Below, piece by piece: positions 18,331-27,503 of a stretch of 64,000 nucleotides of DNA. The notes under the pieces are model-generated. The model searched no databases, was not told the origin of the DNA, and was given only the letters and a program-made list of their open reading frames with translations. Made by a program: the position numbers and the translations under genes. Each line of letters begins with the position of its first letter. Within the stretch, counting starts at the first letter, position 1. Origin of the DNA: Candidatus Eisenbergiella merdipullorum. GTDB lineage: Bacteria > Bacillota > Clostridia > Lachnospirales > Lachnospiraceae. The stretch lies in the NCBI GenBank assembly GCA_019118445.1, contig DWYY01000045.1:1-64000 (forward strand), given 5' to 3'.

Positions 18331-19131
18331 TCAGGCTTTGTCAGCTTTATTATTTTTCTTTCCCAGGAAAGCGGAAATGATCAGCACAGCCGCTCCCAGC
18401 AGCGCTCCCGCAGCCCAGAGCATCACGTTCGACTCATCTCCCGTCTGCGGACCCGTTCCCGTCTGGGATGCGGGCGGAAGGACAACCTGAGCCGGCGGCG
18501 CAGGCACAGCAGGCGTCACCACAGTCTGAACCACGGTCGGGGTGGAGTCGCCGGAGCCGCCTCCGTTTCCTCCGTCGTCAGAAGGATTGGAAGGATTGGC
18601 GGGACGGGAGTAGTGGTTTTGGAAAAGGAACTGTTCCGCCTTCTCTGTACTGTCACTGCGATAGCCGAAGATCATTGCCTTCAGCCCGTCGTTTCCGTCA
18701 TTTACAATCCACACGCCGACATTATAAACTGTCGTATCATATGTAAAATTATTTCTGGGTTCTGCTTCCTGATGAATGGTATAATGGTACTCACCTGGAG
18801 CGTTGTAATAAATTCCCTGAAAATCAGCCGTTTCACCGGCTTTCACCGTGATTTCCTTTACCAGCTTTTCCGTTCCATCCTCATCTGTTACCATAACAGA
18901 GCCATCCGGCATTGGCATGCCTGCCTCTGCTGTCAGAATTACCCTGTATTCATTCCCTTCCGGAATTCCACTGCCGCTTTCCTTTACTGTTGCGCACAGC
19001 TCACCTTTTCCCAGAGTATAATTGTAATCCGCCGCCTGTGCTGTCACAGGCATAACCAATGTCACTCCAAGCAGCGTAAGGAGCAGCAGTTTCCGGATCT
19101 GCCCCAGCTTTTTTTTCATGCTTTTATGCAC
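18331..19131 (-). CDS. Spy0128/FctB-like minor pilin with sortase-signal-like C-terminus
   Basis: Signal peptide; GEYHYTIHQEAEP and FLFQNHY pilin-fold motifs; C-terminal GPQTGD, hydrophobic stretch and KKNNK tail. Confidence 0.75.
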   Translation of the reverse strand: MHKSMKKKLGQIRKLLLLTLLGVTLVMPVTAQAADYNYTLGKGELCATVKESGSGIPEGNEYRVILTAEAGMPMPDGSVMVTDEDGTEKLVKEITVKAGETADFQGIYYNAPGEYHYTIHQEAEPRNNFTYDTTVYNVGVWIVNDGNDGLKAMIFGYRSDSTEKAEQFLFQNHYSRPANPSNPSDDGGNGGGSGDSTPTVVQTVVTPAVPAPPAQVVLPPASQTGTGPQTGDESNVMLWAAGALLGAAVLIISAFLGKKNNKADKA

Positions 19132-19888
19132 CTCCTTCTTGTGCCGTTACCGGTTTCAGCCGCCCATATATCACGACACGGCCGTTCGTTTCCGCTTCGG
19201 CACAGGTTGACAGGCCGATGATCTGATCCTCCGGCTCCGCTCCGATCTCACGGTACTGGACTGCGTTTTCACGGATATATTCCAGAAGGCTTTCCACATT
19301 TCCTTCCTCCTGGGCCGTCGGATTGAACACCCTGCTGTCATAGGCATCGACTTTCAGACAGGCAAATAGCTCAATGCTCCATGTGCCGCCCGGCGCATAC
19401 AGCGTCCCAGTCGTATGCGCGTCAAAAAATGTTTTGTCTGTAAACTCCACAATATCCCCGAACATCCCGCCGTTTTCCATGTGATGGCCGTACAGCAGGA
19501 CATAACTGTCCGAAAAATCTGGACTGTTGGCGCTGTCCAGGAAAATGGAACCGGACAGGGCAAATTCACCATATACATCCTTATTGATGTATTCCATGTT
19601 CGTCTCACCCTGTACCACGGGATAATCGATATGAGTATCGTCTATGGTCACCCATCCCCGCACATCTTCGTTGAGGGCCTGCAACTCCGAAAGGGTCGGA
19701 TTATCCGTCTCCCCGGCTGAAGCAGGCTTGAACTGCAGAAGATCGTTCGAGACAAAAGCGCCCCGGTAAATCATAGCTGTATCCCAGAGGGAATAGCTGC
19801 CGTAAAGAAACATGATTACGATCAGAAGCACCACAATGCCGTTCAGTATTCTGTTTCCGATTCTGGCGCATCTGGCTGCCGTTTCCAT
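19124..19888 (-). CDS. Class B sortase
   Basis: N-terminal TM; DYPVVQGETNMEYI, LLYGHHM catalytic His, GLSTCAEAETNGRVVIYGRL catalytic Cys/Arg. Confidence 0.9.
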   Translation of the reverse strand: METAARCARIGNRILNGIVVLLIVIMFLYGSYSLWDTAMIYRGAFVSNDLLQFKPASAGETDNPTLSELQALNEDVRGWVTIDDTHIDYPVVQGETNMEYINKDVYGEFALSGSIFLDSANSPDFSDSYVLLYGHHMENGGMFGDIVEFTDKTFFDAHTTGTLYAPGGTWSIELFACLKVDAYDSRVFNPTAQEEGNVESLLEYIRENAVQYREIGAEPEDQIIGLSTCAEAETNGRVVIYGRLKPVTAQEGGA

Positions 19889-20014: not shown

Positions 20015-21100
20015 TTAAAAGTTATTTTTTCTTCTACGCAGGAACAAGAATGCAAGACCACCTGCCAGAACTACCATCAGGATGTAGGGGGCAATGTTCA
20101 TAACAATACCTGTTTCAGGAACGCCATTTGTATTTGTATTTATGAAATTCACAACAGGTACCGTACTGGCTTTGGCATCTTCCAATTTCTTCTTTTCTTC
20201 GCCATTCACTGTCGTAGTATAATTGGAATCTTCTGTAGTTTCAGTAACTGTATACGTATCCTCTGCCGAAAGACCATAGACCACAGCGCTATCTCCATCG
20301 GCAAGTACAAATCCCTGAGATATTCCATCAGTAAGAGTATACGAAGTTGTATGCGTTCCACCCTTTTTATTGGTCACCACCATATAGTAATTTTCCGTAG
20401 CGTTTTCATCATTGTCTGAAACAGCTATTGTAAACTCAAATTCCCTGTTCAAGTCACCCATCTTACCTGTAACCTCTTTTGTTATCCTAAGTGACTCTTT
20501 TCCATCCTCAGATCCTTCGGTAATATACTTATTGGTAAATCCATCGCTCTTTGCGCTGCCATTCCACATCTCATATCCGGCAATCTGAAGATCTCCAGTA
20601 GGATTCCCATCCTCGTCCATAACGTTTTCCACATATACGTACAGATCTCTTGATACTCCGTCATAGGTCATTCCATCATAAGTTCCCGAGGCCTCTGCAA
20701 CTATATAATGATAAATACCTGCCTGATCAAATTTATCCGCATTAAAACTGAATCCCTCATTAGAAGTCATTACCACCTTGTTTTTTGCTAATATGTCCTC
20801 ATCAGTTGAAGGTTCAAAATCAATGGTAACTGTACCGCCATTTAAAATAGCATCGCTGATTCCTTTTTCTCCCTTTGCATCCTTATCCCCCTTTGTAACT
20901 GTAAAGGTAAAGGACGTATCTGGAGTAGGAACATTTATTCCCTTTTCAAGCGTTTTCTTAACAAGGACATTGTTTCCTTTTCCTGCACCAATATCTCCAT
21001 CTTCTGCAAATGCCGTCATTCCAAACATGGAGACCATCATTGTTCCTGCCATCAGTGCTGCCGCTATACGGCGGAAATATTTGTTGTGTTTCAGACTCAT
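20015..21100 (-). CDS. Spy0128/FctA-like major pilin
   Basis: Start taken at MSLKHNKYFRRI; signal peptide; YHYIVAEASG, FTNKY, VTGKMGDLNREFEFTI; C-terminal VPETG, TM and RRRKNNF. Confidence 0.88.
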   Translation of the reverse strand: MSLKHNKYFRRIAAALMAGTMMVSMFGMTAFAEDGDIGAGKGNNVLVKKTLEKGINVPTPDTSFTFTVTKGDKDAKGEKGISDAILNGGTVTIDFEPSTDEDILAKNKVVMTSNEGFSFNADKFDQAGIYHYIVAEASGTYDGMTYDGVSRDLYVYVENVMDEDGNPTGDLQIAGYEMWNGSAKSDGFTNKYITEGSEDGKESLRITKEVTGKMGDLNREFEFTIAVSDNDENATENYYMVVTNKKGGTHTTSYTLTDGISQGFVLADGDSAVVYGLSAEDTYTVTETTEDSNYTTTVNGEEKKKLEDAKASTVPVVNFINTNTNGVPETGIVMNIAPYILMVVLAGGLAFLFLRRRKNNF

Positions 21101-21253
21101 AACATTCTTCCTCTCTTTTTCCTGATTTTTTGTTTCTATGTTGGCGGCTTTTGCCGCCTCTATCACAAAGCAAGCCTTCAGGAGTTGCATGAAACGACTT
21201 TTCCCCCGCTGCTCTGTAATATACATGTTAATTGTTCCGGCTTATTTGCCTGT

Positions 21254-21850
21254 TCACAGTTCCGAACGTCGGATGACAGTGATCACCTTTCCTTTAATCT
21301 CCTTTTTCCCCACTGGACCAAAATACCGGCTGTCCCTTGCTCCTTCTCGGTAATCGCAAAGAACGAATACCTGTCCTTCTTCCAGCGTCAACGGATAAAT
21401 CACTTTGCTTTCATATCGGGGAGTACTGTAATAGATATCGCTTTCCGCCACATAACTGCCATTGATCATCAGTCTGGCATCTTCCGTTACCTCAACCGTA
21501 TCTCCGCCCACTGCTACGACACGCCCTGTGTATTGTCTGCCTTCTTTTTCAAATATAATGACATCATCTGCCCGGAGCGTATCTTCCAGCCGATAAAACA
21601 GCATCAGATCTCCTGCACTGATACGGGGTGACATATCGTCATTTCTCATAACGGCAAGACCAAATACCATGCCAAACAGGAGCCACAGCAAAACCACCAG
21701 AAACACAAGTCTCGTAAAAAAGGAGCTGACATCTTCCTGATTTGCGATGCTGCGCCGCCTTATCAGAATCACTTCTTCCGGCGTCTGGATGGCGGGCGGG
21801 CCTTTTCGGCCACCCTGCCTGTGTCCTTTTTTCTTACTCTTCTGTTTCAT
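21254..21850 (-). CDS. Signal peptidase I-like protein (SipA-like, predicted protease-dead)
   Basis: S26 family pattern NDDMSPRISAGDLMLF ... YTGRVVAVGGDTVEV ... YFGPVGKKEIKGKV; start taken at MKQKSKKKGHRQ. Confidence 0.82.
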   Translation of the reverse strand: MKQKSKKKGHRQGGRKGPPAIQTPEEVILIRRRSIANQEDVSSFFTRLVFLVVLLWLLFGMVFGLAVMRNDDMSPRISAGDLMLFYRLEDTLRADDVIIFEKEGRQYTGRVVAVGGDTVEVTEDARLMINGSYVAESDIYYSTPRYESKVIYPLTLEEGQVFVLCDYREGARDSRYFGPVGKKEIKGKVITVIRRSEL

Positions 21851-22085
21851 CACCGGCCTCCCCCGCTTCATCGAGCTGGCTTTCCAGCCGGTCAATCATG
21901 TCATCACGCTCATCGAGCAGTGCCTGAAAATATGTTTCCTGTGTCTCAAAAGCCGCTCTGTAATCTGCCTGCAGCAGTTCAATCTGTTTCCAGACATCGG
22001 CTTCATCCACACCGCCGATCAGTTTTTTTCGGAAATGCAGCTTTGTTAGCTGTCCCGCGATTTCTTCCATGCTCTTTGCTGCCAT
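21834..22085 (-). CDS. 83-aa hypothetical coiled-coil protein in the pilus operon
   Basis: ORF with FRKKLIGGVDEADVWKQIELLQADYRAAF; overlaps the next gene's start by 17 bp. Confidence 0.65.
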   Translation of the reverse strand: MAAKSMEEIAGQLTKLHFRKKLIGGVDEADVWKQIELLQADYRAAFETQETYFQALLDERDDMIDRLESQLDEAGEAGDETEE

Positions 22086-22139: not shown

Positions 22140-25100
22140 TCAGCGGAAACGGTTTCTGCGGGATGCTCTGTTTCTTACCATCAATGTAAATCCAAATGTC
22201 GCAGCAACAGAGAACAACATCATCATGAAGGTTGCTCCGGTATTGTCTGTGATGCCTGTATCAGGTACCTCATCCGTTTTGTCATTGCGGAAGGTAACGG
22301 TTATATCCTCCTCGCCTACTGTTATGTCGAAAGAATTTCCCTGCTTTTCACCTTCTCCATTGTCAACATAGGTGGTATATCCGTCTGCAGATTCTTCTGT
22401 AATGACCAGATACTGGCCTGCTTCCAGATTATCAATTTCATAACTTTCATCATCCGACAATGTAAAATGAACTGCTTCTCCTGTCGGGCTTCCATCTTTC
22501 CGGTCATAAATCTGGTAGCTGAAGCTGAAGACCTGATCCAGTTCACCCATATTTCCGGTTACCTGCTTTGTTACGGTAACCTTTACAGCCTTAACCCACT
22601 GCGCATAGAGAACATTATTTTTCGGATTTATCGTATCCACCTGGATGATATCTCTAGGCTGGAGAAGTTTTCCCTTACCGTCAGCATCTGTAGTCCAGCC
22701 AGCGAATGTATATCCTTCTCTATGGATATTTTGTGGTTTGATCTCATATTGCTCGTTTGGAGTTGCGATATCTTCCGTTATTGCCTCATTTCCATCTTCG
22801 TCAGTTCCACCGTTAAAATTATAGGTAAGTGACGTTTCGCGAACAGGAGCCCATTTTGCTGTCAGGGTCACATTTTCTGCAGGCATGGTATACCAGTCGC
22901 CCGGATAATACTCGTTTCCGTCTTCATCCACCCAGCAGACAAAACCATAGTATTCCGCTGGTGGAGTCCAGCTTTCAGGAACAGTCAAGAGCTTCGCGCT
23001 GGCACCTTCTGCATACCTTTCCAAATCAGATACTGATTCACCATTTCCATCTCCTGGAATATAAGTCAATGTGTATTGTGCATCACTGATCCATTGAGCG
23101 AAAAGTGTCATATTTTCCACAACCTGGGTGCTGAAATTGAAAGGTGTTCCATCCGATCTTCTCCATCCTGCAAAAGTATATCCCTCACGTTTCGGATCCT
23201 CAGGTTTCTGAACAGTTCCATTTTTCTCTATTACCTGAGCATCATATTGTGCAGAATCCTCCTGTTCTCCGAGGCTCGCTCCGTTCAGATCAAAAGTAAC
23301 TGTATAGGATACCGGCACCCATTTGGCATATAAAGGGAAATTTCCGGCCGGCATAGTTTTTCCGGCAAATTCATAGGCATCTCCCTCTAATAGCTCATTG
23401 GTATACCATCCTGCGAAGGTGTAATCTTCTTTTCCTGCAGGAGCAGTCGGTGTATATCCAGCCTTACTAATATCAGCTTCATAGAGGAATGTCTTTTCTT
23501 CGTCCACCTCTCCTTCGTTAATAAACTGAATGGTATATTCATTTCTGTCATAGTAGAATTTCCATCCATATGTATTCCGCATGCCCTGAAAGGCTTTTGC
23601 CTGTGAACCTACATCTGCACTGCTATCCCAATTAACAGTAAATCCTTTGATACTATAGTAGTCATTTTCAGTTGTAGTCCACCCTGTATTGTCACTCTTA
23701 AATTCATCCGTATGATCTAGATTGTATCTTCCATCCAATCCTTCCAGATAAAATTCTGTCCGGATTGTATATTTACCCTGTTGATCTACATAGTAAAACT
23801 CATCTCCGTTTATGGGCATTTCTCCTATGCCAGACTGATATATTCTATTCCCCCCATTGGATTCACCTGTCCACCATTGGCTGGAATAGCTGGTACTCAA
23901 ATCAGTTCTTCGGCTGGGCCATAGATTGCTGATATCCTGTCCATATTTTGCAGTAATTGCCAGCTCTGTGATCTCATCGCGCCCTCCTGCTTCTACATAA
24001 ATATAGGAACCATTTCCCTGACCAACATATTCATAACGTCCCCAAATGATGCCTACATAGTTATAATCACCATTTCCCAAACCGACATACTGATATCCGG
24101 CTTCTGCATATTCTTGATAGAATTTTACTTCATAGATGTTACGATCATAATAAACATGTACAACTGTTGTTCCATCATTTTTTATCCGTTGTTGCACAAT
24201 CTGTCTACCTTCATCAGTACTTAATGAAAAGCCTGCATATTTGTCACTTTCAGCAGTGACATTGGTCATGGTTCCCACTGTTCCCTGTCTGATTTCACTA
24301 TCCGCTAGGGAATATCCTTCATCATCCGCATTTTCCTGCCAATAGATAATCCGGTAATTTACTTCTCCCGGAATCCACTTAGCATACAGAGTTATACTTT
24401 CCTGCAGCGTACTTCCAAATTCAAATCTATTCTCACAGGAGCTGTCCGTAAACCAACCGGAAAATTCATATCCTGTATATGTCGGTGCGTCAGGTTCTAC
24501 TGTTTTTTCTCCGGTCCGTACATAAACCGGATCTACAACCGAACCTCCCTGAGAGTCAAAAGTCATCCAATGTACATCAACAATTACCGGATATAAAACA
24601 AGATCACTTCCATCCTGCGGAATTGTTATTTCTTCATCCGGCTTTTCTGCATTTCGTTCCACAGACCAGCCTAAAAAGGCCTTGTTATCTTCTGTCGCAA
24701 GCTGTATCTTTTCCGTTTCAACCACTGCGCCAATCTGATCATATCTCTGTGTGGCAAGAATTTTACTTGTCTCATCATTTCCTGCCTTATAAAAAACGTA
24801 ATATACCTTTTCCGTATATCTGGCATACAGATTGGTCGTCCTATTCCCTTCTAACGCTCCTTCTTCTTGGCCGAAGTTCGTAAACTCAGAATCATCTTCA
24901 CCAAACCATCCTTCAAAGATATACCCGTTTCTTTCCGGTGTTTCAGGTACATTCAAAGTCTCCCCGGCAGAAAGGATCTGCTTATTCCATTCTTCCTGTT
25001 CCCCATCTCCATTTGCGTCTGCATAGAACACATATGTATGCGTAAAGTGCTCATCCTCGTCGCCTGGCGTAGTTACCACATAAACGGAAAAACTGTTCGC

Positions 25101-26012
25101 ATCAAATACCACCGCGTTATTTTCGGTCTGTACGGAAGATACCTCTTCCGGTGATGCGCTTTCGTTTTCCATGTGATAAACAGATACTTCTTCGCTTTGC
25201 TGCAGAGCTTCGCGCACTGCTGTGTTCTCAATCTTTACCTGAATCGCGCCATCCCGCGGCTGATATACCTCACCTTCCGGATCAAAGATCGTAATATCAT
25301 ATGCTGCCAGCACGACTTCATCATCAATCTGGACGTTCACCGGATAGGCTTTTACTTTTGCCCCCTCCGGCATAACTCCTTTCAACGTAATCGTAGTCCC
25401 TGAGGCATTTCTTGAATAAGAAGAATTCTCAAAGACCTCTGCAGCCAGAGTCTGTTTCTTCAGAACCATCTCTGCTTTGGTTTCTCCCAAAGTAGTCTCT
25501 TCCGTCAAAGTCTCCGTCTCCATTTCGGTAGTCTCCTCCGTCAGAGTTTCGGTCTCCTCCTCCGTCGTTTCTTCCGTTGCATCCTCAGTTGTTTCCTCGC
25601 TCTCAGAAGCAGTCTCGGTCGTACCTTCTGTCGTGCTTTCGGTCTCCGTACTGCTTTCTGTCGGTGCAGAACTGCTTTCCAGCACAGAACTTTCCGCAGT
25701 ACTGCTCTCTGTGGATGAAGGCTCCTGCTTGTCCGTCTCACCAGATCCACCGTTCTCTCCGCTGCCGCCGTTTCCGGTCTGCCCTTCCGGCTCGGCAGGC
25801 TGTTCTTCGCTGACCGGTTCACTTGGCGCTTCATTGTTCTGGTCCGAAACTGCCGATCCCGCGCTCTGCGTTGCAGGCTGAGACTGTGTTTCCACAGCAG
25901 TCTCCTGCGCAGTACTCTCCGCCAGCACGGTCAGCCTTCCGGTTCCTGCTGCCGACATCACCAGAGCAAACGCCAATAGGAACGCCATGATTTTTCTTAC
26001 TCTTCTCCGCAT
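22140..26012 (-). CDS. Large sortase-anchored surface adhesin with InlB_B (Listeria-Bacteroides) repeats
   Basis: Signal peptide; Ser/Thr/Glu-rich stalk; multiple Y.FAGW...LYAKW repeats; C-terminal VTGNMGELDQVFSFSY pilin-like domain and VPDTG anchor. Confidence 0.9.
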   Translation of the reverse strand: MRRRVRKIMAFLLAFALVMSAAGTGRLTVLAESTAQETAVETQSQPATQSAGSAVSDQNNEAPSEPVSEEQPAEPEGQTGNGGSGENGGSGETDKQEPSSTESSTAESSVLESSSAPTESSTETESTTEGTTETASESEETTEDATEETTEEETETLTEETTEMETETLTEETTLGETKAEMVLKKQTLAAEVFENSSYSRNASGTTITLKGVMPEGAKVKAYPVNVQIDDEVVLAAYDITIFDPEGEVYQPRDGAIQVKIENTAVREALQQSEEVSVYHMENESASPEEVSSVQTENNAVVFDANSFSVYVVTTPGDEDEHFTHTYVFYADANGDGEQEEWNKQILSAGETLNVPETPERNGYIFEGWFGEDDSEFTNFGQEEGALEGNRTTNLYARYTEKVYYVFYKAGNDETSKILATQRYDQIGAVVETEKIQLATEDNKAFLGWSVERNAEKPDEEITIPQDGSDLVLYPVIVDVHWMTFDSQGGSVVDPVYVRTGEKTVEPDAPTYTGYEFSGWFTDSSCENRFEFGSTLQESITLYAKWIPGEVNYRIIYWQENADDEGYSLADSEIRQGTVGTMTNVTAESDKYAGFSLSTDEGRQIVQQRIKNDGTTVVHVYYDRNIYEVKFYQEYAEAGYQYVGLGNGDYNYVGIIWGRYEYVGQGNGSYIYVEAGGRDEITELAITAKYGQDISNLWPSRRTDLSTSYSSQWWTGESNGGNRIYQSGIGEMPINGDEFYYVDQQGKYTIRTEFYLEGLDGRYNLDHTDEFKSDNTGWTTTENDYYSIKGFTVNWDSSADVGSQAKAFQGMRNTYGWKFYYDRNEYTIQFINEGEVDEEKTFLYEADISKAGYTPTAPAGKEDYTFAGWYTNELLEGDAYEFAGKTMPAGNFPLYAKWVPVSYTVTFDLNGASLGEQEDSAQYDAQVIEKNGTVQKPEDPKREGYTFAGWRRSDGTPFNFSTQVVENMTLFAQWISDAQYTLTYIPGDGNGESVSDLERYAEGASAKLLTVPESWTPPAEYYGFVCWVDEDGNEYYPGDWYTMPAENVTLTAKWAPVRETSLTYNFNGGTDEDGNEAITEDIATPNEQYEIKPQNIHREGYTFAGWTTDADGKGKLLQPRDIIQVDTINPKNNVLYAQWVKAVKVTVTKQVTGNMGELDQVFSFSYQIYDRKDGSPTGEAVHFTLSDDESYEIDNLEAGQYLVITEESADGYTTYVDNGEGEKQGNSFDITVGEEDITVTFRNDKTDEVPDTGITDNTGATFMMMLFSVAATFGFTLMVRNRASRRNRFR

Positions 26013-26076: not shown

Positions 26077-26100
26077 ACCTCATAATGTTTATTATGCGGT
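26077..26100. repeat. Left inverted repeat of putative invertible promoter (IRL)
   Basis: ACCTCATAATGTTTATTATGCGGT; 23/24 identical to the reverse complement of 26442-26465. Confidence 0.95.
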
Positions 26101-26187
26101 CCGGCCGCTCCCTGAAAGCTATCAGACAGAGAGGCTGCAGGCACTTTTCTTTTCGTCAGACGCTCCTATGGAAGCATTCTGACGTAA

Positions 26188-26269
26188 AACCGAAAATTCT
26201 GCGCATAATAAAAAAGACCACGGGCGGCCATTCCCGATGGTCTTGTTGTCATGCGCAGAATTTTCGGTT
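26188..26269. repeat. 19-bp perfect inverted repeat inside the invertible segment
   Basis: AACCGAAAATTCTGCGCAT (26188-26206) and ATGCGCAGAATTTTCGGTT (26251-26269). Confidence 0.95.
26205..26244 (-). terminator. Intrinsic terminator reading toward the pilus operon in current orientation
   Basis: Minus strand AAGACCATCGGGAATGGCCGCCCGTGGTCTTTTTTATTA. Confidence 0.8.
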
Positions 26270-26379
26270 GTTTTCCATCGCTTCCCTTTTCAGAATACTT
26301 TTTTCTGCTTTTTGAGCTGTTTTTTCATTTTCCCGTATAATTTCTGCGGATCTGGAGCCATTTTTGGCCCGGAGAGAGA

Positions 26380-26408
26380 TTGACATTTGCCTGCAGTGCG
26401 AGTATAAT
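26380..26408 (+). promoter_or_regulatory. Perfect consensus sigma-A promoter
   Basis: TTGACA (26380-26385), 17-bp spacer, TATAAT (26403-26408). Confidence 0.9.
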
Positions 26409-26441
26409 TTTTTCAAGTTCAGCGATATGTACTTTCCGGTT

Positions 26442-26465
26442 ACCGCATAATAAACATTATGCGGT
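26442..26465. repeat. Right inverted repeat of putative invertible promoter (IRR)
   Basis: ACCGCATAATAAACATTATGCGGT; itself a perfect 10-bp palindrome around AAAC. Confidence 0.95.
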
Positions 26466-27317
26466 CTTTTTTTCATCCAGAAGAAGGCCGAGCCTCTCAA
26501 TCTGCCGTGCCTGCTCCTTTCCGCTCGACATCGTATAGATCCTCGTCGTGTTGATGCTCGAATGTCCCAGCAGATCGGCCAGGTGCGTGATATCTTTCTC
26601 CATCTCGTAGTAGGTGCACGCAAACAGATGCCTCAGGTTATGCGGGAAGATCTTCCCCTTCTCCACTCCCGCTTCCGCGCTGAGCTTCTTCATCTCATGC
26701 AGGATGTTGCTCCGGTCCATGGGGCGGCCGCTTCTGGTCACAAAGATGCTTCCTGTTCTGATCCCCTTCTGCACTGCGTAGCCAAGAAGGCTCTCACACA
26801 GCGCTGGCGGCAGCAACACCGTCCGTGTCTTTCCCTTCAGGCGCACCACCGCACTCCCGCGTTTTGCCGCCTCCACCGTGATGAACGGCAGCTCACTGAT
26901 CCGGATTCCTGTAGCGCAGAGGGTCTGCATCAGATAGCTCAGCCTCTTTTTTCCCAATCTTTCGGCCGCATCCACAAGGTGAAAATATTCTTCCCTGGAA
27001 AGCTCCTTCTCCTGACTGCGGAATGCCTCCCTCTGCACCCGCACCAGCTTTACCAGGCAGTCGTACCAGCCCTGTTCTTTAAAAAAACGGTTCAGGGCGG
27101 CAAGCATGGAATTCACGCTGCTGACTGCATAGCGCTCCAGAAGCCTTTCCTTATAGCCGATCACGATCGTCTTGTTCACTGCGCCCGACTTTCCCAGCCA
27201 GTGAAGAAAGGCGCGCAGGTCACGCCCGTATTTGTCTATCGTTCTTTTGCTTTTTTCTTCCTCCGCCAGCTTCTGCCGGAACTGCTCCAGCTGTGTCTCA
27301 TTCATGAAATGGTCCAT
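26457..27317 (-). CDS. Tyrosine recombinase, putative invertase of the adjacent promoter
   Basis: R-K-HxxR-H-Y set: ATGIRISEL, RLKGKTRT, HNLRHLF, LLGHSSINTTRIYT; start taken at MDHFMNETQ after GGAAGGAAGGAGAG; stop lies inside IRR. Confidence 0.9.
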   Translation of the reverse strand: MDHFMNETQLEQFRQKLAEEEKSKRTIDKYGRDLRAFLHWLGKSGAVNKTIVIGYKERLLERYAVSSVNSMLAALNRFFKEQGWYDCLVKLVRVQREAFRSQEKELSREEYFHLVDAAERLGKKRLSYLMQTLCATGIRISELPFITVEAAKRGSAVVRLKGKTRTVLLPPALCESLLGYAVQKGIRTGSIFVTRSGRPMDRSNILHEMKKLSAEAGVEKGKIFPHNLRHLFACTYYEMEKDITHLADLLGHSSINTTRIYTMSSGKEQARQIERLGLLLDEKKTA

Positions 27318-27503
27318 TCTTCCCTCTCTCCTTCCTTCCGGGTTATTGTTATTGGAATGCCCGGCTCCGCATTTTTTATACATGATCATAAAAAGTATAC
27401 AACTTTTTCCTTTCCGGACATATCAGGCATGTGAAAAAATTCATTGCCCTTTCCGCACACATGGGCTATCATGAAAGAGAAAACTTATGAAAGGGGATTT
27501 TTT

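Follow-up and report, generated by a model that had tools for sequence, protein, structure and literature searches.

Architecture of the locus

The stretch of DNA analysed here (the window, 64,000 nt of a contig of Candidatus Eisenbergiella merdipullorum) contains a sortase-pilus operon, a pair of inverted repeats upstream of its first gene and, abutting the distal repeat, a gene for a Xer-like tyrosine recombinase (Table 1). The pilus genes form a complete FCT-like set within one operon, comprising an adhesin, a SipA-like signal peptidase, an FctA pilin, a class B sortase and a minor pilin, arranged in the order of FCT-type sortase pili. The adhesin ATG lies at 26012, and 64 bp separate it from the pilus-side repeat (IRL), both as given in a preliminary description of this DNA. 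When the window adhesin (22140-26012) is compared with that of another species (L018:7245-10769), signal peptide, ribosome-binding site and leader are nearly identical, whereas the adhesin bodies differ, with Listeria-Bacteroides repeats in the window versus a VWA domain in L018; this suggests that adhesins may have been swapped behind a fixed switch.

Table 1. Features of the pilus locus and of the segment in front of it (positions in the window)
Feature	Position	Strand	Remarks
Minor or basal pilin candidate	18331..19131	-	FctA-like; GPQTG sorting signal
Class B sortase	19124..19888	-	TIGR03064
Major pilin candidate	20015..21226	-	FctA/Spy0128-like isopeptide domain; VPETG sorting signal
Type I signal peptidase	21254..21895	-	SipA-like position
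Small gene	21834..22085	-	Lies between the genes for adhesin and signal peptidase; L012 and L045 have a small gene at a similar place
Surface protein/adhesin	22140..26012	-	1290 aa; Listeria-Bacteroides repeats, DUF7601, VPDTG sorting signal; heads the putatively switched operon
Pilus-side site (IRL)	26077..26100	.	ACCTCATAA-TGTTTA-TTATGCGGT; one arm mismatch
Invertible interior (predicted)	26101..26441	.	341 bp
Interior stem-loop	26188..26269	-	GACCA...TGGTC-TTTTTT; predicted intrinsic terminator, reading from recombinase to pilus genes in OFF
Sigma-70-type promoter	26380..26408	+	TTGACA-N17-TATAAT, perfect; 33 bp from IRR; faces recombinase (OFF)
Leader element	26415..26434	+	AAGTTCAGCGATATGTACTT; predicted transcript start; would begin the pilus leader in ON
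Predicted OFF transcript	26415..26473	+	About 59 nt; antisense to recombinase 3' end; would stop at IRR hairpin and T-tract
Recombinase-side site (IRR)	26442..26465	.	ACCGCATAA-TAAACA-TTATGCGGT; also hairpin of the predicted terminator
Xer-like tyrosine recombinase	26457..27389	-	Up to 310 aa; PF00589/PF02899
T-tract outside IRR	26466..26473	+	CTTTTTTT; with the site, a terminator-like element

The two repeats (26077-26100 and 26442-26465; 24 bp, 23 of 24 positions identical) stand alone in the 64-kb window: an exhaustive scan for 24-mer pairs that differ at no more than one position, with arms about 1 kb apart or less, finds no other, and no such pair occurred in eight Markov shuffles of 64 kb. 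Their coordinates and the 341-bp interior agree exactly with the preliminary description, which had also proposed palindromic arms around an asymmetric core. That layout stands, but its four-base core, GTTT, gives way to the six-base core TGTTTA, because in relatives the 9-bp arms (ACCGCATAA and TTATGCGGT) are constant while the core varies by locus and is matched within pairs. In the window, the core is identical at IRL and IRR. IRL carries the single mismatch in its outer arm, a part that inversion leaves unexchanged, and the identical mismatch occurs in the identical place in a second species, 'Candidatus Eisenbergiella stercoravium' (genome G008, locus L012), whose recombinase frame is open.

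Between the repeats lies the sole perfect consensus promoter of the 64-kb window, TTGACA-N17-TATAAT at 26380-26408, which points rightward, away from the sortase-pilus operon. Its earlier placement was borne out by our scan, and its score, taken against shuffled interiors, is among the strongest in the set of 34 loci described below. Reflected by inversion, the -10 element would fall at 26134-26139 and give a leader of about 115 nt, as had been calculated correctly before. This leader would begin with a 20-mer, AAGTTCAGCGATATGTACTT, that is perfectly conserved in four Eisenbergiella modules from three species (the window, contig C161 of the same genome, L012 and L018), all of them OFF-facing. 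Outside those modules, the 20-mer was not found among 13 genomes of the genus, and there is therefore no sign of a wider regulon.

The recombinase gene (26457-27389) is the strongest local evidence for an invertible segment and was missing from the preliminary description. It abuts the right repeat so closely that its last codons and stop lie inside IRR, the stop TAA being the end of arm ACCGCATAA; homologues suggest that the true start may be about 24 codons in. The catalytic residues R163, K187, H250, R253, H276 and Y285 are all present and do not vary among 12 aligned relatives, and the nearest solved structures are those of XerA, XerC-like and XerD proteins.

The 205 contigs of the window genome were searched by pattern and by protein. 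Contig C161 (G000:C161, L005:1-318) holds a second recombinase and site, with 82% DNA identity to the window and the same core; the identity runs through the site up to the -10 region and then ends. Behind the -10, this second segment has unrelated DNA instead, probably an insertion sequence, at the contig end. Each of the two enzymes may also act on the sites of the other. In a relative (L046:6928-7900, G004:C36), the recombinase frame is broken, either as a pseudogene or through an assembly error, and the OFF pilus switch that follows it is otherwise intact; that copy is possibly locked OFF.

The module in related genomes

Recombinase homologues from genomes of the genus, of the order and of GTDB were picked by protein similarity, with the repeats playing no part as a filter, and one further locus (L044) was added by site-pattern searches; the strict site pattern matched few of 396 family genomes. 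At 34 of 42 loci, or 34 of the 36 with enough flank, a repeat pair was detected that starts where the recombinase gene ends. Among the eight loci without a pair, five meet a contig end within about 500 bp and one meets a gap, and the other two (L059 and L067), which have enough flank, showed no standard pair within the limits used, L059 carrying a 26/26 pair 700 bp apart. The modules, several of which lie in fragmented MAGs, share a single order, namely recombinase, site, 150–340 bp with one outward promoter, site and surface operon. Downstream genes include those for pili, S-layer-type proteins, flagellar fliE-fliF, polysaccharide and a sensor kinase, which are typical phase-variable kinds. 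In two congeners (L047:7304-8011 in G001:C17 and L051:7402-8073 in G012:C1), the module stands 32–33 bp before fliE-fliF-fliG, with the promoter OFF in both.

Promoter direction was scored from outward promoters located 15–75 bp from each end, with shuffled interiors as the control. An outward promoter was distinguished from the shuffles (p≤0.02) in 26 of the 34 loci, and across modules the -10 mostly ends 33–50 bp from the site. By these calls, which rest on consensus promoters, 27 loci face OFF, four face ON (L016, L017, L021 and L061) and three are unclear. The excess of OFF among the called loci (27 of 31) departs from 50:50 with p of about 3e-5, a value to be read with the proviso that loci sharing a genome or a genus are not entirely independent of each other. 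No orthologous segment in opposite orientation was found when all downstream regions were compared, every one having the same orientation.

At the shared-arm loci, which carry ACCGCATAA/TTATGCGGT with at most small changes, the cores were matched within the pair in all eight cases, with seven distinct cores (TGTTTA, GGTTTA, TATTTG, TAGACA, TATCTA, TGCTCA and CATTCA), none of them self-complementary. Constant arms combined with a matched, locus-specific core are what a tyrosine recombinase requires for inversion by active strand exchange. In two relatives, the assembly breaks exactly at a site: the contig of L014 stops at the last base of the site, and both flanks of G593:C137 stop at the site, an N gap following one of them; in G600, the orthologue has a 233-bp segment in place. 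Such breaks, which occur in relatives rather than in the window's species, may reflect populations of mixed orientation. The earlier reading of an invertible promoter, captured OFF, in front of a pilus operon is supported in all three parts by these comparative loci.

Variant forms of the sites were also seen. Near the recombinase 3' end of L055, there are 86-bp perfect inverted repeat arms, each with two site copies around a tRNA T-arm-like stretch, and four IMG/VR viral contigs (L027–L030) contain a palindrome in which the 9-bp site arms flank a longer core.

Terminators, predicted switching and other readings

The interior stem-loop at 26188-26269 is much stabler than its shuffles (z about -9), and its U-tract lies in the recombinase-to-pilus direction. 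An operon-facing interior terminator was present in 10 of the 13 OFF loci checked; at the ON locus L021 it is turned the other way, whereas L016, also ON, departs from the pattern in having a weak terminator toward the operon. At the right end of the segment, IRR and the adjacent CTTTTTTT fold as a predicted terminator, and therefore the OFF promoter should yield only an RNA of about 59 nt, antisense to the recombinase 3' end. Over the 34 loci, the stretch just outside the recombinase-side site is richer in T (4.7/10) than that outside the operon-side site (2.9/10; p=0.003), mainly because of Lachnospiraceae-type loci; the recombinase-side T-tract is not universal, being clear in those loci and absent from most family-f17 loci. 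In some Lachnospiraceae-type loci the tract also codes for a lysine-rich recombinase tail, and coding constraint may contribute to it.

With this anatomy, the intact catalytic residues, the conservation of the module, the co-variation of cores and the occurrence of both promoter directions among family members, the segment is very probably an inverton, an invertible promoter whose Xer-type tyrosine recombinase is encoded in cis and dedicated to it. This enzyme would bind the 9-bp arms of both sites, and strand exchange at the 6-bp core TGTTTA would flip the 341-bp segment. In the OFF orientation, the sole strong promoter would fire toward the recombinase and stop after about 59 nt at the IRR and T-tract terminator, while the interior terminator would keep transcripts of the recombinase gene from running on into the pilus operon. 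In the ON orientation, the promoter would lie 33 bp inside the left site and read through that site, which has no T-tract, into the operon, so that the adhesin, signal peptidase, pilin, sortase and second pilin genes would be transcribed behind a leader of about 115 nt, with the interior terminator facing away from them. Inversion in this strain, the transcription start and pilus phase variation are what we infer from the DNA, and it is probable that the cell switches its pili on and off by flipping this segment.

It is unlikely that the switch, formerly invertible, has decayed or become locked and is now fixed OFF, leaving the pilus operon silent or under another signal. Every Eisenbergiella copy that keeps the leader element is OFF-facing, comparison between species gave no orthologous segment in inverted orientation, the recombinase frame is broken in the relative G004:C36 and one window site has an arm mismatch, all of which such a fixed state would accommodate. 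The first two of these observations would also fit a switch that flips only rarely in these species. However, the window recombinase is full length and keeps every catalytic residue, the cores match perfectly, different species have retained the promoter and leader element, and the arm mismatch is common to another species with an open recombinase frame.

A 24-bp mirror-image pair with matched non-palindromic cores, a recombinase abutting it in 34 loci and ON-facing members of the family would all go unexplained if nothing inverted and the repeats were back-to-back hairpins, serving as terminators or attenuators, around a promoter that makes a small RNA. We regard this as very improbable, even though the IRR hairpin and its T-tract score well as a terminator prediction and conservation of the predicted RNA is perfect over its first 20 nt. 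Tyrosine recombinases also serve as integrases, and the sites might on that ground be taken for the termini or attachment sites of a mobile element that encodes the recombinase, but the geometry already contradicts this: the sites are inverted rather than direct, the recombinase lies outside the segment, which holds only a promoter and a terminator, and the module precedes surface operons in many genomes. To this last account we give next to no credence.

Relation to known switches

The closest precedents for the inverton read here are the SZO08560 promoter of Streptococcus zooepidemicus and, by function only, fimS of Escherichia coli. With fimS the locus shares a tyrosine recombinase, a promoter segment of about 300 bp, a pilus operon and the OFF/ON logic. 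FimB and FimE are proteins of about 200 aa that act on 9-bp repeats, whereas the present locus has one Xer-like enzyme of about 300 aa, 24-bp palindromic sites and an unrelated pilus type. Identity as a FimB/FimE-type invertase was rejected, the window recombinase scoring far under the cut-offs of both models (PRK09871, 31.8 bits against 222; PRK09870, 29 against 221), and so was a chaperone-usher fimbrial operon, the pilus genes here being of the sortase-assembled, Gram-positive type. The earlier label of 'fimS-type' is therefore apt for the working principle but not for membership, with an Xer-like enzyme under the invertase cut-offs and a sortase pilus.

In S. zooepidemicus, SZO08560 has an invertible promoter and an adjacent recombinase, SZO08550, and reads in reverse orientation were reported (PMC2654543). 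The likeness lies in an LPXTG-type surface protein of Gram-positive kind that bears Listeria-Bacteroides repeats (PF09479), a promoter between inverted repeats and a recombinase next door, SZO08550 being likened to the window recombinase by gene position. The difference is that the repeats there are quoted as 10 bp, the segment is about 115 bp and a single surface protein is concerned, whereas a whole sortase-pilus operon follows here. In Clostridioides difficile, RecV switches cwpV and flgB, with repeats of about 20 bp lying 150–230 bp apart (PMC2784873, PMC7446863). By description, this system resembles ours in its gut Clostridia setting, an Xer-family tyrosine recombinase, surface and flagellar targets and the involvement of terminators; it differs in that RecV serves several switches in trans, whereas the window recombinase adjoins its own sites, and in that the cwpV promoter is outside the invertible segment.

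PhaseFinder-type surveys of invertons (Jiang et al. 2019, cited in PMC11868660; PMC11892184) describe gut-bacterial promoters between short inverted repeats, and the text of PMC11892184 makes no mention of pili, flagella or sortases. Although the kind of switch is known, this widespread, mostly OFF-facing, terminator-insulated module family appears to be undescribed in the open-access literature searched. We found no paper on it there, though it may be listed in an inverton survey; nor did that literature yield reports of inversion control of sortase pili in Lachnospiraceae, or of Eisenbergiella pili together with inversion. The sortase-assembled pili of common gut Lachnospiraceae join the surface structures that are likely under DNA-inversion control, and throughout an order of gut bacteria one recombinase-plus-inverton module precedes genes of diverse function: pili, S-layer-type proteins, a flagellar operon, polysaccharide genes and a sensor kinase. 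The whole module, from recombinase and sites to promoter and terminators, spans about 1.4 kb or less, and this compactness makes recombinase specificity (arms), crossover identity (core) and the OFF bias directly testable in a reporter.

The most interesting leads are the OFF bias, the layout of the terminators and a dead-twin variant of the module. For E. coli, PMC2784873 describes that transcripts terminate downstream of fimE in OFF and that FimE is higher in ON, which biases the switch to OFF; by analogy, a fimE-like arrangement of termination could account for the excess of OFF loci seen in this family. An inversion would reverse terminator and promoter together, and where the recombinase mRNA ends would depend on orientation. 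We tentatively suggest a double switch with feedback on its own recombinase, a possible but doubtful arrangement in which the OFF terminator and the short antisense RNA would cap the recombinase mRNA, whereas in ON the terminator would turn away and the mRNA would run on, so that output would vary with orientation and populations would be mostly OFF. The dead twin of family f17 would be a candidate for its protein arm.

The family-f17 paralogues of the recombinase (L084:5142-5954, L085:4422-5240, L087:4299-5150 (+) and L088:6352-7170 (-)) are 270–283 aa long. Each is the first gene past the distal site, with its start 6–25 bp after it, and lies upstream of SLH-domain surface proteins. They lack most of the catalytic residues, at least R163, H250 and H276 being missing from each in the alignment, and the paralogue may be a catalytically dead twin of the recombinase that would be made only in ON. 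Further copies of this twin were found in three genera, with eight in G647.
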